64,000 nucleotides of DNA, taken from NCBI RefSeq assembly GCF_030160295.1, contig NZ_BSOB01000010.1, forward strand, positions 1 through 64,000, in the 5' to 3' direction. The notes beneath the pieces are model-generated. The model was not told where the DNA came from. It did not search any database and worked only from the letters and a program-made list of their open reading frames with translations. Below, piece after piece: positions 841 through 22,006 of the stretch. The stretch's first letter is position 1; the number at the start of each line of letters is the position of its first letter. Made by a program: the position numbers and the translations under genes. Origin of the DNA: Dyella acidisoli (lineage in GTDB: Bacteria; Pseudomonadota; Gammaproteobacteria; Xanthomonadales; Rhodanobacteraceae).

Positions 841-895
841 TGTCCAGATACTGTCCGAACAAGGCGGACAGCTGTCCGCGGACAAGCTCTTGTCC
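841..895 (+). promoter_or_regulatory. Clustered TGTCCG/CGGACA sites upstream of small-peptide gene 1
   Basis: Sites visible: a half site TGTCC at 841, TGTCCGAACAAGGCGGACA at 852-870, the perfect palindrome TGTCCGCGGACA at 873-884, and a further TTGTCC at 890-895. The cluster lies 60-110 bases upstream of a sigma-54-type promoter, the usual place for enhancer-binding protein sites. The same arrangement recurs at 4491-4523. The activator that would bind it is not in this window; its identity is unknown. Confidence 0.7.
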
Positions 896-951
896 TACTC
901 CGCATATCGAAAAATGGCTGAAATACGCGGCCTTTTGCATGCCCACGCCAT

Positions 952-967
952 TGGCATGGGCTATGCA
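952..967 (+). promoter_or_regulatory. Sigma-54-type -24/-12 promoter of small-peptide gene 1
   Basis: TGGCATGGGCTATGCA matches 10 of 12 defined positions of the sigma-54 consensus TGGCACG-N4-TTGCW, with the invariant GG (953-954) and GC (965-966) at the required 12-base offset. Transcription would start near 977, giving a leader of about 34 bases to the ATG at 1011. Confidence 0.7.
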
Positions 968-1010
968 CTACCTCATTCGAAAGCCACGTAGCCCACCAAG
1001 GAGAACAGCC

Positions 1011-1097
1011 ATGAAATTCGAAACACTGATGCTGAACAGTCTGTTCGTCGCTTGCCTGGTGATTTGCGTAACAACGCTGGGTGCCATGCTTGCCTAA
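1011..1097 (+). CDS. 28-aa hydrophobic small peptide, paralogue 1
   Basis: This short gene encodes 28 residues beginning MKFETLMLNSLF and ending TLGAMLA. A charged N-terminus (K2, E4) is followed by one hydrophobic stretch (about 11-28) that could span the inner membrane, with cysteines at 15 and 19. An AAGGAGAAC ribosome-binding site sits 4-5 bases before the ATG. A second gene at 4652-4738 encodes a peptide identical at 24 of 28 positions. Between the two copies I count about seven synonymous codon changes against four replacements, which supports real coding. Upstream lie a sigma-54-type promoter and clustered palindromic sites; downstream is a 15-base inverted repeat. The function is unknown. 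I do not recognise the family; a membrane-complex subunit, toxin or signalling peptide are all possible. Confidence 0.75.
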   Translation: MKFETLMLNSLFVACLVICVTTLGAMLA

Positions 1098-1104
1098 GTC
1101 ATTC

Positions 1105-1155
1105 GATTCACTCTTGCCGCCCCCTCCTAGGCAGCGATGACGGCAAGAGTGAATC
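1105..1155. terminator. Inverted repeat between converging genes
   Basis: A perfect 15-base stem (GATTCACTCTTGCCG at 1105-1119 and its complement at 1141-1155) with a 21-base loop lies directly after the small-peptide gene and overlaps the last codons of the converging AraC gene. It lacks a T-run, so termination is inferred from position and symmetry. Confidence 0.5.
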
Positions 1156-1954
1156 ACGGCGAACGAGAAGACACCACGGAAGGCTCTATCACCTGCTTCA
1201 TATAGTGCGTAGGCGTAACACCCAGCACGCGATGAAACATGCTGCTGAAAGCACTGCAACTCGCATAACCCGCATCGCGGGCTACCATTTTGATGGCGTG
1301 TCCCTGACTTATCTGACTCAGTGCCCTGGCCAGCCGAACATGCTGCCGCCAGTGCACGAATGACATCTGCAATTCACTCTCGAACAACCGCGCCAGGGTT
1401 CGGCTGCTGGCGCCCACATGTGCGGCCAGCTGATCCAGCGTTTCCACCCGTGATGTTCCAGCAAGCAGCCGCTGGCATACATTTTTGAGCCGCGGATCCG
1501 ACGGCACCGGTATATGCAAGGATTCTTCGTTTGCTTCCTGCAATTCATGCAGTAGCAAGGGCGCCAGGATCGTCATGCGCTCCCTGTGCTTCTCTGCGTA
1601 TGCCTGCACAGCAGACAAGATCAATTCCCGCAACAGCCCTGATATTGCCAACACCTTGCAGTGCGAACCAAACAATGCGCTGCTGAGGCGGTCCAGATAC
1701 AGCATGCGAACGGCCACCTGCCCTTCCATATGAATTTCGTGTTCCATTCCCAGCGGCATCCATAAGGAACGTTGTGGCGGAACGATCCAGATGCCTTCGC
1801 GCGTAGTCACGTGCATGACGCCCGATTTGGCGTAAATCAGCTGACCACGGCGATGGCGATGCTTGGGCACATGCCATCCGCGCGGGTAATCCTTGGCGAG
1901 CGCCGTAATAGGCCACACTTTCACGCGTGGGGGCTGCTGTCTGAAACGCGACAC
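1154..1954 (-). CDS. AraC-family transcriptional regulator
   Basis: A 266-aa regulator. The N-terminal half (about residues 15-110) is a cupin-type ligand-binding domain with a histidine-rich start (HVPKHRHRRGQLIYA). The C-terminal 100 residues hold two helix-turn-helix units of the AraC type, including VETLDQLAAHVGASSRTLARLF and a second motif around DAGYASCSAFSSMFHRVLG, the classic family signature. The overall layout resembles NimR/YdeC-like regulators, but the inducer cannot be told. The start is a GTG at 1954 with AAAGG about 11 bases upstream. It diverges from the DUF1501 gene at 2086, so it may control that gene; the 131-base gap shows no obvious palindrome. It is not an enhancer-binding protein and so is not the candidate activator for the sigma-54-type promoters nearby. 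Confidence 0.9.
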   Translation of the reverse strand: MSRFRQQPPRVKVWPITALAKDYPRGWHVPKHRHRRGQLIYAKSGVMHVTTREGIWIVPPQRSLWMPLGMEHEIHMEGQVAVRMLYLDRLSSALFGSHCKVLAISGLLRELILSAVQAYAEKHRERMTILAPLLLHELQEANEESLHIPVPSDPRLKNVCQRLLAGTSRVETLDQLAAHVGASSRTLARLFESELQMSFVHWRQHVRLARALSQISQGHAIKMVARDAGYASCSAFSSMFHRVLGVTPTHYMKQVIEPSVVSSRSP

Positions 1955-2085
1955 AACATGGCCACCTTTCGAAAGACGGACGGGCCTAGGCTACGTCTGA
2001 AATCGTGGCGAAGGCAACAAGGCGGCAATCAGTTGAATGCAACCGGTGATCGCGCCAGCCGCCAAGTCGAAAAAGGCAGGTTCAC

Positions 2086-3171
2086 ATGCACACGCACGCA
2101 ATGACACGACGTAGCTTCCTCAAGGTAGGTGCTGCTTTGACTGGCACGCTAGCCCTAGGCGACTGGAATCTGCTGGCACGATCAAGTCACCGCACTGAAC
2201 GCCCTACTCTGGTTGTGTGGTGGCTAAACGGCGGCCCTGCCGGCCTGTTCAACAGTGCAGACGCGTTTTTTGCCAATGGTGCATTCGGCGTAACGCGAGA
2301 CAACGTGCGCGCCTTGGGCAATGGACTTTATGTCGATGCCGGTTCGCTCGGTACGCTACCCGCGGTCGCCGTGGCCCATATGGCATCGGTGCACTTCCGG
2401 CATGGGCTCTATTCGCACAACGACTCACGTGCAGCGGTATTGCAGTCAGGCCCACGCAGTCAGCTGCTGCGCATGGCGGCCGCCATGCCGCGCAGCACGG
2501 TCTCGTGTGCCATCGTCAATAACCTGGGTTTACCGGTAGGTGTCTCTGCCAATCCACCCGTCGAACACGACTCTGGTTTCGAACACATCATCAAACTCGA
2601 CGATGCCCGCCGCGCACTCTCCGTCACGCAATTCAACGACATCCGAGAAGCCTATGGCGCATTCGGCACCAACCCTACCATCGACAGCCAGCGAGCAACC
2701 TTCACCGCCGTAGAGGCACTGGTGCATGAAGGCGCCAACGTGATCTTTGCGCAACCGGCGTATACCGGCCGGCAGGATCGCCAATTTGATACTCACCTCG
2801 ACGACACCGGAAAAGTTGCACGCGAGATCATGGCTCCCATTACACCGATGCTGGCAACGTTTCTCAGCCGCGTCATGACCATGCCGGGCCGCAATGTCGT
2901 AACGCTGCTGACGGGCGAATTCAGCCGCACACTACCCGGTGCCGATCACGCCAAAGGCGGTACCGCTACCGTGATCGGCAAATACGTCAAGACTGGCGCT
3001 GCCGCGCGCCAACAACCTGACGGATCGCCGCCTGCGAATGCGCCGCCACCCGAAGCACTCTGGGCTTTCGTCGCTTCAGCATTGCGATTGGGCGAAACCG
3101 CGCCTTTTGGGATCAACCCGCATCCCGGCTTGTTGGCACGGAATGCCGCTGAAACGACCAGCGTCGTGTGA
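2086..3171 (+). CDS. DUF1501 family protein with Tat signal
   Basis: A 361-aa exported protein. A twin-arginine motif TRRSFLKVG followed by a hydrophobic segment marks Tat export, so the protein probably folds, and may bind a metal, before reaching the periplasm. After the signal comes VVWWLNGGPAGLFNSADAF, and near residue 270 LLTGEFSRTLPGADHAKGG, both typical of DUF1501 proteins, which belong to the alkaline-phosphatase/sulfatase-like fold. Biochemical activity of the family is not established. The protein is shorter than many members (often above 400 aa). The start at 2086 has GCAGG just upstream; the internal ATG at 2101 would start directly at the Tat motif. Its 3' end overlaps the converging acyltransferase gene by 59 bases. 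Confidence 0.8.
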   Translation: MHTHAMTRRSFLKVGAALTGTLALGDWNLLARSSHRTERPTLVVWWLNGGPAGLFNSADAFFANGAFGVTRDNVRALGNGLYVDAGSLGTLPAVAVAHMASVHFRHGLYSHNDSRAAVLQSGPRSQLLRMAAAMPRSTVSCAIVNNLGLPVGVSANPPVEHDSGFEHIIKLDDARRALSVTQFNDIREAYGAFGTNPTIDSQRATFTAVEALVHEGANVIFAQPAYTGRQDRQFDTHLDDTGKVAREIMAPITPMLATFLSRVMTMPGRNVVTLLTGEFSRTLPGADHAKGGTATVIGKYVKTGAAARQQPDGSPPANAPPPEALWAFVASALRLGETAPFGINPHPGLLARNAAETTSVV

Positions 3172-4282
3172 ATACGGGAAGCCGGATGCCAACCAAGCGT
3201 TTGCGCATCCATGCCGAGGCCGGCGCTTCGATATAGCGGAACATGAGCCAGGCACAGGCCACCGCGATGATCGGCCGCGTCACGAAAAGTACCACCCTGT
3301 ATACATCCGGCTCCATGGGGATACGCGTCGCCACACGTTGCACAAGTTCAAACACATAGACGTGCATGAGATAGAGCGAATAAGAAATCTCGCCCATCCA
3401 CACGGTCCACGCTGGCACTTTGATATCGCCGCGCTTGGCGAGCAACACGATACCGAAGAACAGGATGGCCAGCGGCGCGCCCCATCCGCGCGGGCCGAAG
3501 AAATTCACCATGCCGATGCGATGCCAGCCGATAAGCAGCGTGGCGAGCAGCAAGATCACCGTAACGTAGACAGTTGCAACGTGCTTGATCGTAAAGCGGG
3601 AGCAATACAGCCATCCGGCAAGCATGCCAAATATGAACTCCCAGACGATCGGATTGATCGCGAGGTTGGCATATCTCGACCACGTCACCAGCGGTTGCGA
3701 AGCAACGCCAAGGCTGTAACTGCCGCGCAGAAGCGGAATTGCAATCAGCGTCAGGGCAAACCAACCCGCCATCACCCCATAGCGATGCCGACCGAAAAGC
3801 ATGCACGCTGCGAATACCAGATAAAAATAGCACTCGAAACACAACGTCCACGCCACACCTAACGCCATATTGAAATAGATGGGCGATGCAGCGGGATCGT
3901 GCGGGATGGAGAGCAAGCCTTCCAGATACGGGAACAAGACGGAAGCGTGGAGAAACCCGTGAATGCCGTGGTGGTCGACCGCCACGGCGATCAATGAAGC
4001 GATGGCAAATAAGGGCCAGATTCTTGCGATGCGTTTGGCCGTGAACTTCCATGCGTATGCACGGCTTGCGTCAAAGTCCCGGGTGGTCAGTACCATCAGA
4101 AAGCCGCTGATGATGAAGAAGAGATCCACGCCCATGCTCAGCGGCAAGAACAGGTGGTCGGCGATGAGTTGGCCAGCATTGGTACCCATCAGCGCGCCGC
4201 GGTTATGCACCAGCACGACCATGAAGGCTGCGATGCCGCGCAGTGCCTGGATCCACGCAAGCTTGTGATCTTGGGTGCCCAT
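3113..4282 (-). CDS. Acyltransferase 3 family membrane protein (OafA/YrhL-like)
   Basis: A 389-aa integral membrane acyltransferase. The N-terminus has the family signature IQALRGIAAFMVVLVHN, with the conserved Arg and His, followed by GVDLFFIISGFLM and about ten hydrophobic segments. Members move acyl groups (often acetyl) from the cytoplasm to surface sugars such as O-antigen, exopolysaccharide or glycans. No SGNH extension is present, so this is the short membrane-only form. There is no sugar-biosynthesis cluster beside it, so the acceptor cannot be predicted. It converges on, and overlaps by 59 bases, the DUF1501 gene. No clear Shine-Dalgarno sequence precedes the ATG. Confidence 0.9.
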   Translation of the reverse strand: MGTQDHKLAWIQALRGIAAFMVVLVHNRGALMGTNAGQLIADHLFLPLSMGVDLFFIISGFLMVLTTRDFDASRAYAWKFTAKRIARIWPLFAIASLIAVAVDHHGIHGFLHASVLFPYLEGLLSIPHDPAASPIYFNMALGVAWTLCFECYFYLVFAACMLFGRHRYGVMAGWFALTLIAIPLLRGSYSLGVASQPLVTWSRYANLAINPIVWEFIFGMLAGWLYCSRFTIKHVATVYVTVILLLATLLIGWHRIGMVNFFGPRGWGAPLAILFFGIVLLAKRGDIKVPAWTVWMGEISYSLYLMHVYVFELVQRVATRIPMEPDVYRVVLFVTRPIIAVACAWLMFRYIEAPASAWMRKRLVGIRLPVFTRRWSFQRHSVPTSRDAG

Positions 4283-4360
4283 CGTAAGTGAGTGCGCACT
4301 GGCGCTGTCCTGGTTGTGCCCGCTGCCTTTGCCTGTCCTACCGAATTAGCTAAAAGACTC

Positions 4361-4437
4361 GTCGCCCCGGCGAAGGCCGGGGCCTAGCGTCTTGTGGATC
4401 GTAAAAGTCACTGGGCTCCGGCCTTCGCCGGGGCGAC
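4361..4437. repeat. Perfect 20-base inverted repeat (GTCGCCCCGGCGAAGG type)
   Basis: GTCGCCCCGGCGAAGGCCGG at 4361-4380 is mirrored exactly at 4418-4437, with a 37-base centre. Each arm also contains a short internal palindrome. It resembles the genome-wide palindromic elements of proteobacteria and lies between the acyltransferase start and the second sigma-54-type promoter region. Confidence 0.8.
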
Positions 4438-4490
4438 GCATGCTGAGAAGGGGCACGTGGCCGTGAACCAATTTCTCTTCGTCCGCCCGC

Positions 4491-4523
4491 TGTCCGGACA
4501 ACGCGGACAACCGTCCGCGGACA
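4491..4523 (+). promoter_or_regulatory. Clustered TGTCCG/CGGACA sites upstream of small-peptide gene 2
   Basis: The palindrome TGTCCGGACA at 4491-4500 is followed by GCGGACA at 4503-4509 and CGTCCGCGGACA at 4512-4523. The spacing and order match the cluster at 852-884. Distance from the first site to the ATG is about 160 bases in both copies. Interpreted as binding sites for an enhancer-binding activator. Confidence 0.7.
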
Positions 4524-4590
4524 GGTACGCGCATCGACCGAAATATCGAGAAATGGCTTAAGACCGCGGTTTTTCGTGAGCACAACGACT

Positions 4591-4606
4591 TGGCACAAGC
4601 CTTGCC
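4591..4606 (+). promoter_or_regulatory. Sigma-54-type -24/-12 promoter of small-peptide gene 2
   Basis: TGGCACAAGCCTTGCC keeps the invariant GG (4592-4593) and GC (4604-4605) at the same 12-base offset as copy 1 and matches TGGCAC...TTGC of the sigma-54 consensus. Predicted start near 4616, leader about 36 bases. Confidence 0.75.
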
Positions 4607-4651
4607 ATATCTACATCGAAAGCTTCACTCATCAACTCACGGAGAACCGCC

Positions 4652-4738
4652 ATGAAATTCGAAACCCTGATGCTGCACAGCCTGTTCGCTGCCTGCCTGG
4701 TGATCTGCGTTGCAACGCTGGGCGCCATGTTGACCTGA
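4652..4738 (+). CDS. 28-aa hydrophobic small peptide, paralogue 2
   Basis: A 28-residue product beginning MKFETLMLHSLF and ending TLGAMLT, differing from the product of 1011-1097 only at positions 9, 13, 21 and 28. Both cysteines (15 and 19) and the single hydrophobic stretch are kept. A CGGAGAACC ribosome-binding site precedes the ATG. The leader, sigma-54-type promoter and upstream palindromes are conserved with copy 1 in order and spacing. It converges on the large TonB-dependent receptor gene ending at 4798, and a hairpin at 4754-4781 lies between them. Function unknown; likely membrane-embedded. Confidence 0.78.
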   Translation: MKFETLMLHSLFAACLVICVATLGAMLT

Positions 4739-20296: not shown

Positions 20297-22006
20297 ATGC
20301 TTCATCTTTCTAACCGAAGCCCGCTGCATCCAACTGCAACGGGCTTGCATAAGCTTTACTACCTAGCATCACTTTGCATCTACCTCATCCTGGCGCTCTG
20401 TTATTTCGGAACCTGGCATTCCTGGACACAGCACTACCTCGGCGAAGGTAACGATCCGGTCAGCTTCGTCTGGTTCATCCATTGGTGGCCATTCGCTCTT
20501 CAGCACCATTTGAATCCATTCGTCAGCTATTACGTCTGGCATCCGGATGGCGTCAATCTTTCATGGACCACATCTATTCCGACCATTGCGCTGCTGCTTT
20601 GGCCGATTACCGCCACGGGCGGCCCGGTGATGGCCTTCAACGTCATCAGCGTCCTGGCTCCGGCAATCAGTGCCTGGACAGCTTTTCTGTTGGCCATGTA
20701 TCTCTCGCGGCGATGGCTGCCTTCGCTGTTTGCGGGATATTTTTTCGGCTTTTCGTCTTACGAATTCGGCCAGCTGCTCGGCCACCTGAATCTCGACCTT
20801 GTGTTTCTGATACCGGTCGCGGTGCTGCTCTGTGTGACTCATGTCCGCGGAGATCTTCGGCGCCGCACGTTCGTTCTGTCGCTCGCGGCGGTGCTGATTC
20901 TTCAGCTAGGCATTTCGACGGAAGTGCTCGCGAGCCTGTGCGTACTCGGTGCGATGACGTGGCTGATCTTTCTTCTCTTCACTCCGATTGCGGATCGCAA
21001 ACCACTATGGCGGCTTGCCAAAGATATCGCCCTTACCGCGCCGATCGTGCTGGTGTTTGCTGCACCCTACCTCTTCTACATGTTCAAAGGCATGGCGCAT
21101 GGCCAACCGTTTCATACGTTGCCATCTGAATACTCTGCGGACCCGCTGAATCTTCTGATTCCCACTCGTGTTTCCTTACTCGGCAGAGCCACCTCCACAT
21201 GGGCCGAGAAATTTAGCGGCAATGCCTCGGAGCAAGGCGCTTACCTCGGCTTGCCACTGCTTTTGGTGGCCATGTGGTATTTCCGCGATCACTACCGGGA
21301 TCGCGGCGTCAAAGCCTTTCTGGTCGCGACGTGTGCGCTGGCGATAATGAGTTTGGGGCCGCATCTGCAAATCGAACGGCACATCACAAAGCTTCGCCTT
21401 CCATGGCATGAAATCATGAAATTGCCCCTCATCGACGAAGCGCTGCCAACGCGCTTCATGATGTACGTGGCGCTGTGCGCAGCGATTGCAGCTGCACTGT
21501 GGCTATCGGATGCGAAGACACGCAAGCAGCTGATCGGTAGGGTCGGCATCGCCATGCTGGCTGCAGTCGCGCTATTACCTGATGGCTCGGCATTCGCGTG
21601 GACATCGTGGCCTGCACAGCCATTTTTCCAGGCCGCTCACATCGAACAGACGCTGGGCAAACATCCGAACGTGCTGATTCTGCCCTTCTCCGACAAAGGT
21701 CCGGGCATGGGCTGGCAGGTCGACGCCGGCATGGCATTTACGCAGGCCGCCGGTTACCTGGGGCCTGATCCCAAGCAGGAAGATGGTGTCACCTTGGAAG
21801 AGCTTCGCCACGGCGAACTCTCACCGGATTTTGGCAGCCATCTGGAAACGTTCTGCCTGGCACACAACGTCGATTACATCGTGATCGGCCCCGATACGCC
21901 CACTGCGCTGACCGAAGCCATTTCCAAGTTACCTTGGACGCAGCACGTTGACGGTAACGTTGTGGTCGTCGACGCGCCGCGCATGCCTACACTGACCCAG
22001 CGATAG
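20297..22006 (+). CDS. Polytopic membrane protein, GT-C-like
   Basis: A protein of about 569 aa. It has around ten hydrophobic segments (first at YYLASLCIYLILALCYFG) and a periplasmic-looking loop after helix 1 with EGNDPVSFVWFIHWW. The C-terminal 150 residues are soluble (HPNVLILPFSDKGPG to the end). The layout resembles GT-C glycosyltransferases or YfhO-like membrane proteins, with an acidic residue in the first loop, but no catalytic motif is certain. The start is unclear: the ATG at 20297 precedes the first helix; the frame is open to 20240. It ends 4 bases before the converging PAP2 phosphatase gene. A role in lipid or sugar transfer is a guess from the neighbour. Confidence 0.75.
   Translation: MLHLSNRSPLHPTATGLHKLYYLASLCIYLILALCYFGTWHSWTQHYLGEGNDPVSFVWFIHWWPFALQHHLNPFVSYYVWHPDGVNLSWTTSIPTIALLLWPITATGGPVMAFNVISVLAPAISAWTAFLLAMYLSRRWLPSLFAGYFFGFSSYEFGQLLGHLNLDLVFLIPVAVLLCVTHVRGDLRRRTFVLSLAAVLILQLGISTEVLASLCVLGAMTWLIFLLFTPIADRKPLWRLAKDIALTAPIVLVFAAPYLFYMFKGMAHGQPFHTLPSEYSADPLNLLIPTRVSLLGRATSTWAEKFSGNASEQGAYLGLPLLLVAMWYFRDHYRDRGVKAFLVATCALAIMSLGPHLQIERHITKLRLPWHEIMKLPLIDEALPTRFMMYVALCAAIAAALWLSDAKTRKQLIGRVGIAMLAAVALLPDGSAFAWTSWPAQPFFQAAHIEQTLGKHPNVLILPFSDKGPGMGWQVDAGMAFTQAAGYLGPDPKQEDGVTLEELRHGELSPDFGSHLETFCLAHNVDYIVIGPDTPTALTEAISKLPWTQHVDGNVVVVDAPRMPTLTQR

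Follow-up and report, generated by a model that had tools for sequence, protein, structure and literature searches.

AcrZ and MgrB are small single-pass inner-membrane proteins, and MgrB acts on PhoQ. Sigma-54 promoters carry GG at -24 and GC at -12 in the context TGGCAC-N5-TTGC. According to PMC5985334, peptides are handled by pumps of the MacB type, and MacAB is controlled by PhoPQ, a system that responds to antimicrobial peptides. A 2025 survey, in its accessible part, found sigma-54 promoters enriched before COG0577 FtsX-like permeases in Gammaproteobacteria and other classes, which its authors presented as first evidence (PMC12316311). The present analysis concerns two genes for 28-residue peptides in the first 64,000 nucleotides of contig NZ_BSOB01000010.1 of Dyella acidisoli (hereafter the window), from a genome of 64 contigs and 5,344,344 bases in total. 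The preferred reading, to which slightly less than an even chance is given, is that both genes encode sigma-54-controlled single-pass membrane micropeptides that serve as accessories to a co-regulated MacB-type exporter. They resemble AcrZ and MgrB in size and in co-regulation with a pump or a two-component system, a comparison that does not extend to sequence, and differ from them in that several peptide copies occur per genome.

Both genes are present as the sequence-only reading of the window had claimed and are identical at 24 of 28 residues. The same parts follow one another in both copies, namely a TGTCCG/CGGACA cluster, an AAATGGCT block, a -24/-12 box, a ribosome-binding motif and the peptide. 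The common palindromic site is exact in copy 1 and has one mismatch in copy 2. The two proposed promoters fared differently: the copy 2 box is perfect, whereas that of copy 1 is weaker than had been implied. The features of the two copies are as follows.

852-884, plus strand: enhancer cluster of copy 1, with TGTCCG at 852-857, CGGACA at 865-870 and the exact palindrome TGTCCGCGGACA at 873-884.
912-919, plus strand: AAATGGCT block of copy 1, between enhancer and promoter, a putative binding element (sequence and spacer comparison).
952-966, plus strand: sigma-54-type -24/-12 box of copy 1, TGGCATGGGCTATGC, with 8 of 10 consensus bases.
998-1003, plus strand: ribosome-binding motif AAGGAG of copy 1, read from the sequence.
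1011-1097, plus strand: predicted 28-residue membrane micropeptide, copy 1, MKFETLMLNSLFVACLVICVTTLGAMLA (profile and peptide search, alignment, codon analysis).
4491-4523, plus strand: enhancer cluster of copy 2, with TGTCCGGACA at 4491-4500, CGGACA at 4504-4509 and CGTCCGCGGACA, one mismatch from the palindrome, at 4512-4523.
4551-4558, plus strand: AAATGGCT block of copy 2 (sequence and spacer comparison).
4591-4605, plus strand: sigma-54-type -24/-12 box of copy 2, TGGCACAAGCCTTGC, with 10 of 10 consensus bases.
4641-4644, plus strand: ribosome-binding motif GGAG of copy 2, read from the sequence.
4652-4738, plus strand: predicted 28-residue membrane micropeptide, copy 2, MKFETLMLHSLFAACLVICVATLGAMLT (profile and peptide search, codon analysis).

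Both window genes look coding, judging from an excess of synonymous change and from conservation that ends at the stop codon. The synonymous excess between the copies, also noticed earlier, amounts to 8 changes over 20.8 synonymous sites versus 5 replacements over 63.2 replacement sites, a ratio of replacement to synonymous change (pN/pS) of ~0.21. The median pN/pS of 60 family members is 0.51, taken over the 1,267 of 1,770 pairs with a synonymous difference below 0.6. Among 15 aligned genes of exactly 28 codons, identity at the three codon positions is 0.76, 0.89 and 0.61, and mean identity is 0.75 within the gene, 0.65 in the 20 nt upstream and 0.27 in the 20 nt past the stop. A ribosome-binding motif precedes 46 of 51 peptide genes. 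Being tiny and without a counterpart among Pfam or NCBIfam models, the frames could be spurious, with conservation confined to leader DNA or RNA; the codon-position pattern, the end of conservation at the stop codon, the synonymous excess and the ribosome-binding motifs make that explanation extremely improbable.

The genome contains five copies, the two in the window and others at C10:529141-529221, C18:37596 and C18:37832; these three, together with relatives throughout the family, are the further members that had been predicted. Copies are also present in related genomes, an outcome that favors the regulon proposed in the sequence-only reading, which had taken their absence as grounds for rejection. 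Of the 61 genomes compared, 32 match a single window peptide used as query (expectation value, E, up to 10), all of them Rhodanobacteraceae, and 32 match the family profile A1 (E up to 0.01). Across the order, the same profile and threshold match 63 of 299 genomes, comprising 62 of 76 Rhodanobacteraceae and a marginal 1 of 223 others (E 0.008); the 76 are the family part of a kinship-ordered listing that is taken as complete and in which 216 unmatched genomes are not itemised. The 14 family genomes with no match, G019 among them, are spread over seven genera, and a single genome has up to ten matches.

Members range from 27 to 74 residues and have the first 27 in common, with a majority core of M-K-F-E-T-L-M-L-x-S-L-F-x-A-C-L-L-x-C-x-L-T-L-G-A-M. 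Beyond these, a member may have no tail, an alanine-rich tail or one ending in a two-cysteine motif of type CALPPDGVVCPR, for which C-A-L-P-P-D-G-V-V-C-P is the typical form in the long class. Members of ~70 residues with a two-cysteine tail had not been foreseen in the sequence-only reading. In 46 aligned rows M1 and E4 are invariant and K2, L8, F12, C19 and M26 are kept at 90% or more; E4 occurs in all 65 distinct peptide genes and K2 in 60 of them. Column variability in 60 members peaks at 98 degrees (positions 4-27, permutation p 0.009; 0.031 and 0.036 for two other position ranges tried), a helical period that fits one conserved face of a membrane helix. The 19-residue hydropathy maximum exceeds 2.2 in both window copies, and a membrane location is predicted, as is dependence on sigma-54. 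A lipoprotein reading of F-A-A-C was rejected, as there is no invariant lipobox cysteine: C15 is replaced by S, T, G or A in 9 and C19 by S in 4 of the 65 genes, and the residue preceding C19 is V, I or L in 60. A peptide derived as a copy of a permease helix was also rejected, the best E of the peptide hidden Markov model (HMM) against 120 permeases being 0.98 and shuffled N termini doing better (0.18).

The earlier remark that no named family was known to match the peptide agrees with the searches, in which neither window peptide matched a Pfam or NCBIfam family at E up to 1, two long members matched none in either database at E up to 0.001, and one divergent member matched none in Pfam at E up to 1. 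Literature searches, whose coverage excluded most subscription journals, returned no description of the peptide or the regulon, and neither the enhancer nor the assignment of the activator turned up in them. In length, hydrophobicity and tandem duplication the peptides are reminiscent of small hydrophobic toxins, either those of type I toxin-antitoxin systems or membrane-depolarizing ones. That they are such toxins is nonetheless very unlikely, given the long tailed members, the conserved N-terminal charges and the enhancer-type sigma-54 control common to the peptides and an exporter.

Within the D. acidisoli genome each control element is weakly informative by itself: the box pattern has 28 matches versus 13 for its reverse, and the palindrome with at most one mismatch has 20 versus 12. 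The composite pattern GTCCGCGGACA-N48..76-TGGCAY-N5-TTGC gave 128 matches in 34 of the 61 genomes and none when reversed, which places palindrome and box together far above chance. Less than 110 bp before a peptide gene lie 76 of these 128 sites, while 31 are upstream of the candidate activator gene described below (in the same direction and within 45 kb of it) and 21 are elsewhere. The peptide genes counted number 110 (113 profile matches minus three left out); 76 stand directly behind a composite site and 21 more are within 350 bp of another copy. A sigma-54-type box with at least 8 of 10 consensus bases occurs within 90 nt of the start in 51 of the 65 distinct peptide genes, and in these 51 the gap between palindrome and box is 67 bp in 35, 65-69 bp in 50 and 57 bp in one. 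A shared regulon of the peptides and the exporter described below is well supported by these comparisons.

The presence of the AAATGGCT block, claimed earlier, is borne out, and in the 28-residue and mid-length classes its distance from the box is constant. The spacer holds AAATGGC, AAACGGC or GAATGGC in 14 of 18 members of the 28-residue class and 10 of 15 of the mid-length class, compared with 0 of 16 in the long class and 1 of 43 adaptor promoters. IHF was considered as its binder and rejected: the strict IHF consensus is found in just 2 of the 18 and 1 of the 15 spacers. It also occurs in 9 of the 43 adaptor spacers and in 6 of the 16 of the long class, where its position is always the same. 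The block is thus something other than an IHF site, or else a weak variant of one.

The sequence-only reading had placed the activator of these sites elsewhere in the genome, and a strong candidate was found in a locus that begins with a composite site. At C10:287 kb an exact palindrome and a box precede a HlyD-type adaptor gene, which is followed in the same orientation by genes for an ABC ATPase, at least eight permease-like proteins, an alpha/beta hydrolase, a YkuD-type protein, a sigma-54 response regulator and a histidine kinase. The locus was read as two stretches, the ~6 kb between them holding one MacB_PCD match; two of the permease-like genes were tested against Pfam and one is cut by the edge of a stretch. 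Adaptor (HlyD), ATPase (ABC) and both tested permeases (MacB_PCD/FtsX) have Pfam matches over cut-off, as in the MacB family. The small-protein regulon proposed earlier is supported, and a MacB-type exporter and scattered permease genes under the same site, which had not been foreseen, are added to it. The response regulator is the candidate activator.

G000:C10:266064-267443: candidate activator gene, in the exporter locus of ~264-287 kb, which starts with a composite site.

The exporter represents a variation on the known MacB type. Like MacAB-TolC and other MacB exporters it combines a HlyD-type adaptor and an ABC ATPase with MacB_PCD/FtsX permeases; some genomes also have an outer-membrane efflux protein, in the locus or under the same site. 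Unlike in MacAB-TolC, ATPase and permease are encoded separately, the permease genes occur as multiplied pairs, peptide genes belong to the regulon, and sigma-54 enhancer control would take the place of PhoPQ (for PhoPQ, the accessible part of PMC5985334). It is not an E. coli-type MacB, as the ATPase is unfused and scores 213.6 bits, and the permeases 47.4 and 48.2, against an equivalog cut-off of 966. Permease A corresponds to the first half and permease B to the second half of the ADOP duplicated-permease model TIGR03434; however, they are two separate genes, with 164 and 186 bits against a cut-off of 622. Among NCBIfam models the darobactin export protein DarD is the best for the ATPase (255.7 bits) and DarC the third for the adaptor (81.6 bits), but these scores are below the curated cut-offs of 375 and 450 and do not make the system a darobactin exporter. 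No peptide-modifying enzymes were seen among the exporter-locus genes read, to which the search was confined.

Co-regulation with a HlyD-ATPase-MacB/FtsX exporter, together with the scores against DarC and DarD, the latter the ATPase's top NCBIfam match, raises the alternative that the peptides are cargo of their own MacAB/TolC-type exporter, pulled from the membrane or periplasm as signals or antibacterial peptides; this is considered possible though doubtful. The long class would then present or release a two-cysteine tail, probably closed by a disulfide. The tail cysteines are kept in long members, including three divergent ones found by synteny or site, and MacB-type pumps carry small disulfide-bonded peptides according to the accessible part of PMC5985334. 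Set against this are the sub-threshold darobactin scores, the conservation within the family of the membrane core and not the tail, the members of 27-29 residues with no tail, the absence by eye of a conserved signal-peptidase motif, and the variable lipobox (A, V, T or F at position 14; C, S, T, G or A at position 15). The accessory reading is preferred because the membrane core is the conserved part and the shortest members consist of nothing else.

The candidate activator has receiver (PF00072), AAA+ (PF00158) and Fis helix-turn-helix (PF02954) domains over cut-off (L061:4062-5447), and its sigma-54 contact loop, for which the motif is GAFTGA, reads GAYTGA. It falls below the equivalog cut-offs of AtoC (349.4 of 714 bits), the PEP-CTERM regulator PEP_resp_reg (344.3 of 502.6) and GlrR (292.5 of 763). 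An ortholog 79-94% identical is present in 29 of 36 family relatives and one 70-72% identical in six others, five with no profile match and G016 with a divergent member; none was found in G013, a genome that is 86% complete. Twelve activator loci from family genomes (one in two stretches) and eight from other families were fetched. The adaptor lies within the stretch in nine of the twelve, in each case with a -24/-12 box and TGTCCG-type half sites just before it, and one family locus (L093) holds activator and kinase only. In other families, four of eight loci have adaptor, ATPase, permeases, activator and kinase, one of these four with box and half sites in a loose scan; L102 has permeases, activator and kinase, and L098, L099 and L101 have no exporter in the stretch.

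The kinase suggests a further role for the peptides, as feedback regulators that damp their own regulon, comparable to MgrB on PhoQ. They are apparently made under the very kinase/response-regulator pair on which they would act, and small single-pass proteins with a conserved helix face suit a kinase partner. Up to ten matches per genome and strong tail variation are, however, unusual for a dedicated regulator, and the kinase is present also where the peptide was not found; this role is judged unlikely.

Of the 21 composite sites located elsewhere, 17 were fetched, and 12 of these precede an exporter-type permease, judged from translations. The rest precede an outer-membrane efflux protein (by Pfam), a proline-iminopeptidase-like hydrolase and three other proteins. 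One relative has an outer-membrane efflux gene with the full composite site (L083). In D. acidisoli itself, an exact TGTCCGCGGACA is found upstream of pcm-tolC at L063:7244-7255 (G000:C6:45243-45254), with no -24/-12 box in the 260 nt after it (best 6 of 10).

The GTDB genome collection was also scanned by DNA pattern alone, which returned at least 118 loci. Among the 118 matches listed, the first downstream gene encodes a peptide in 49, an adaptor in 43, a permease in 8, a hydrolase in 1, an ATPase in 1 and another product in 16. The adaptor loci among them include some from Roseateles, Mitsuaria, Pelomonas, Paucibacter, Rubrivivax, Scleromatobacter and a Shewanella; the pattern locates such regulons in other classes. 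Seven of the matches listed have an activator gene within the stretch. When the proposed activator and four other activators of the D. acidisoli genome were compared with these, six, including those of Roseateles, Shewanella and an acidobacterial metagenome-assembled genome, were closest to the proposed one (52-86% identity), and the seventh (L126) to another. This links activator and enhancer across classes with no use of the peptide. The gap following GTCCGCGGACA in the matches listed is mostly 67 bp before peptides (36 of 49) and 66 bp before adaptors (23 of 43); in 6 of the 43 adaptor loci it measures 53-56 bp, shorter by roughly one turn of the helix.

Among the 16 other scan loci, L154 (E 0.003) and L173 contain divergent peptide genes by eye, and L168 and L199 offer 8 nt and 129 nt of downstream sequence. 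Others of the 16 precede an S10 peptidase (L189), a DUF885 protein (L193) and a DUF4440 protein (L123), all by Pfam, and by eye an S10-like protein (L217); composite sites at L084 and L080 likewise belong by eye to this S10-peptidase-like, DUF885 and DUF4440 group. Peptidase-like regulon members (S10, S33-like) would fit a response to peptides, a weak indication. No related gene is seen at the rest of the 16, of which those from unrelated phyla appear to be random matches.

The long peptide class sits beside trmL in Dyella, and this neighborhood was searched in 20 genomes with a weak or no profile match, 19 of which had trmL; the 700-1400 nt upstream were inspected in all 19. Members with a box and half sites were seen in G290 (profile E 1.5e-5), G016 (E 0.001) and G019 (missed by the profile), with HMM E values of 2e-10, 2.6e-8 and 9e-5, respectively, when nine sequences were searched. 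Since the divergent G019 member escaped the profile, profile counts are lower bounds. In G037 (L235) and G048 (L240), of another family, a 9/10 box and TGTCCG-type half sites are followed beside trmL by unrelated small proteins that start much like a secretion signal and contain V-x-V-R-P repeats; that of G037 has no Pfam match. These bear on export of the peptides as cargo from both sides, as secretion-signal-like proteins behind such a site suggest it, but they are not relatives by profile. Unrelated small frames with a hydrophobic N terminus were also observed in G050 (L241, a third family; behind a 9/10 box with half sites), G023 (L230; behind a 10/10 box lacking half sites) and G136 (L232; behind a 9/10 box). 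The peptide profile matched none of the small proteins of these five genomes (E 0.2-0.96), and no family member was seen in the remaining 11 of the 19 loci.

Coding status, the fixed enhancer-promoter layout, co-regulation with the exporter and the candidate activator are supported by the comparisons above. Building on them, we infer that one response-regulator enhancer-binding protein, encoded with a histidine kinase in the MacB-type exporter locus, would recognize the TGTCCG/CGGACA cluster that lies ~67 bp ahead of each -24/-12 promoter. The exporter, the additional scattered FtsX/MacB permease genes and the micropeptides would then be turned on together. Each peptide would span the inner membrane with its N terminus on the inner side and pack, by its conserved helix face, against a partner, most likely the co-regulated permeases. 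The peptides may act there as small accessory subunits when the cell responds to envelope stress or stress from antimicrobial peptides.

Several results weigh against this scheme. Thirteen of the 110 peptide genes, window copy 1 among them, have neither a strict site nor a copy within 350 bp, and the comparison with 120 permeases found no sequence resemblance between peptide and permease helices. Exporter and activator occur with no recognised peptide in several genera and families, which implies that the peptide is not essential to the pump. The number of peptides correlates weakly with that of MacB_PCD genes (rho 0.61, p 0.012 in 16 Dyella; rho 0.35, p 0.033 in 37 family genomes; relatedness uncorrected in both), and with genome size the values are 0.37 and 0.33 in the same two sets. 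Finally, the unrelated secretion-signal-like proteins of G037 and G048 favor export as cargo; on their account the accessory role slipped from an even chance to slightly below it, and the cargo explanation, while still doubtful, gained a little.

The analysis describes a micropeptide family with a clear control logic, comprising enhancer, promoter, candidate activator and kinase, and with a candidate partner machine, so that the function of peptides this small can be tested directly in environmental bacteria. For the link between sigma-54 and FtsX permeases that PMC12316311 drew from promoter statistics, the analysis contributes an enhancer motif and a likely activator; the accessible part of that survey names no enhancer site, cognate activator or small peptide. 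A tentative extension, well short of an even chance, is that the peptides are a new class of interchangeable accessory helices for a large repertoire of FtsX/MacB-type permeases, one sigma-54 activator setting all permeases and peptides so that the cell could assemble different exporter variants under peptide stress, or else that the long members form a novel group of disulfide-loop peptides secreted by that exporter, replaced in neighboring families by unrelated small secreted proteins.

Two further observations concern the window. GC-rich palindromic extragenic repeats (REP-like) lie at 95-165, 740-835 and 4365-4440, close to the two peptide loci, and may be connected with the duplication. 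A one-mismatch palindrome, TGTCCGCGGAGA, is found at 20842-20853.

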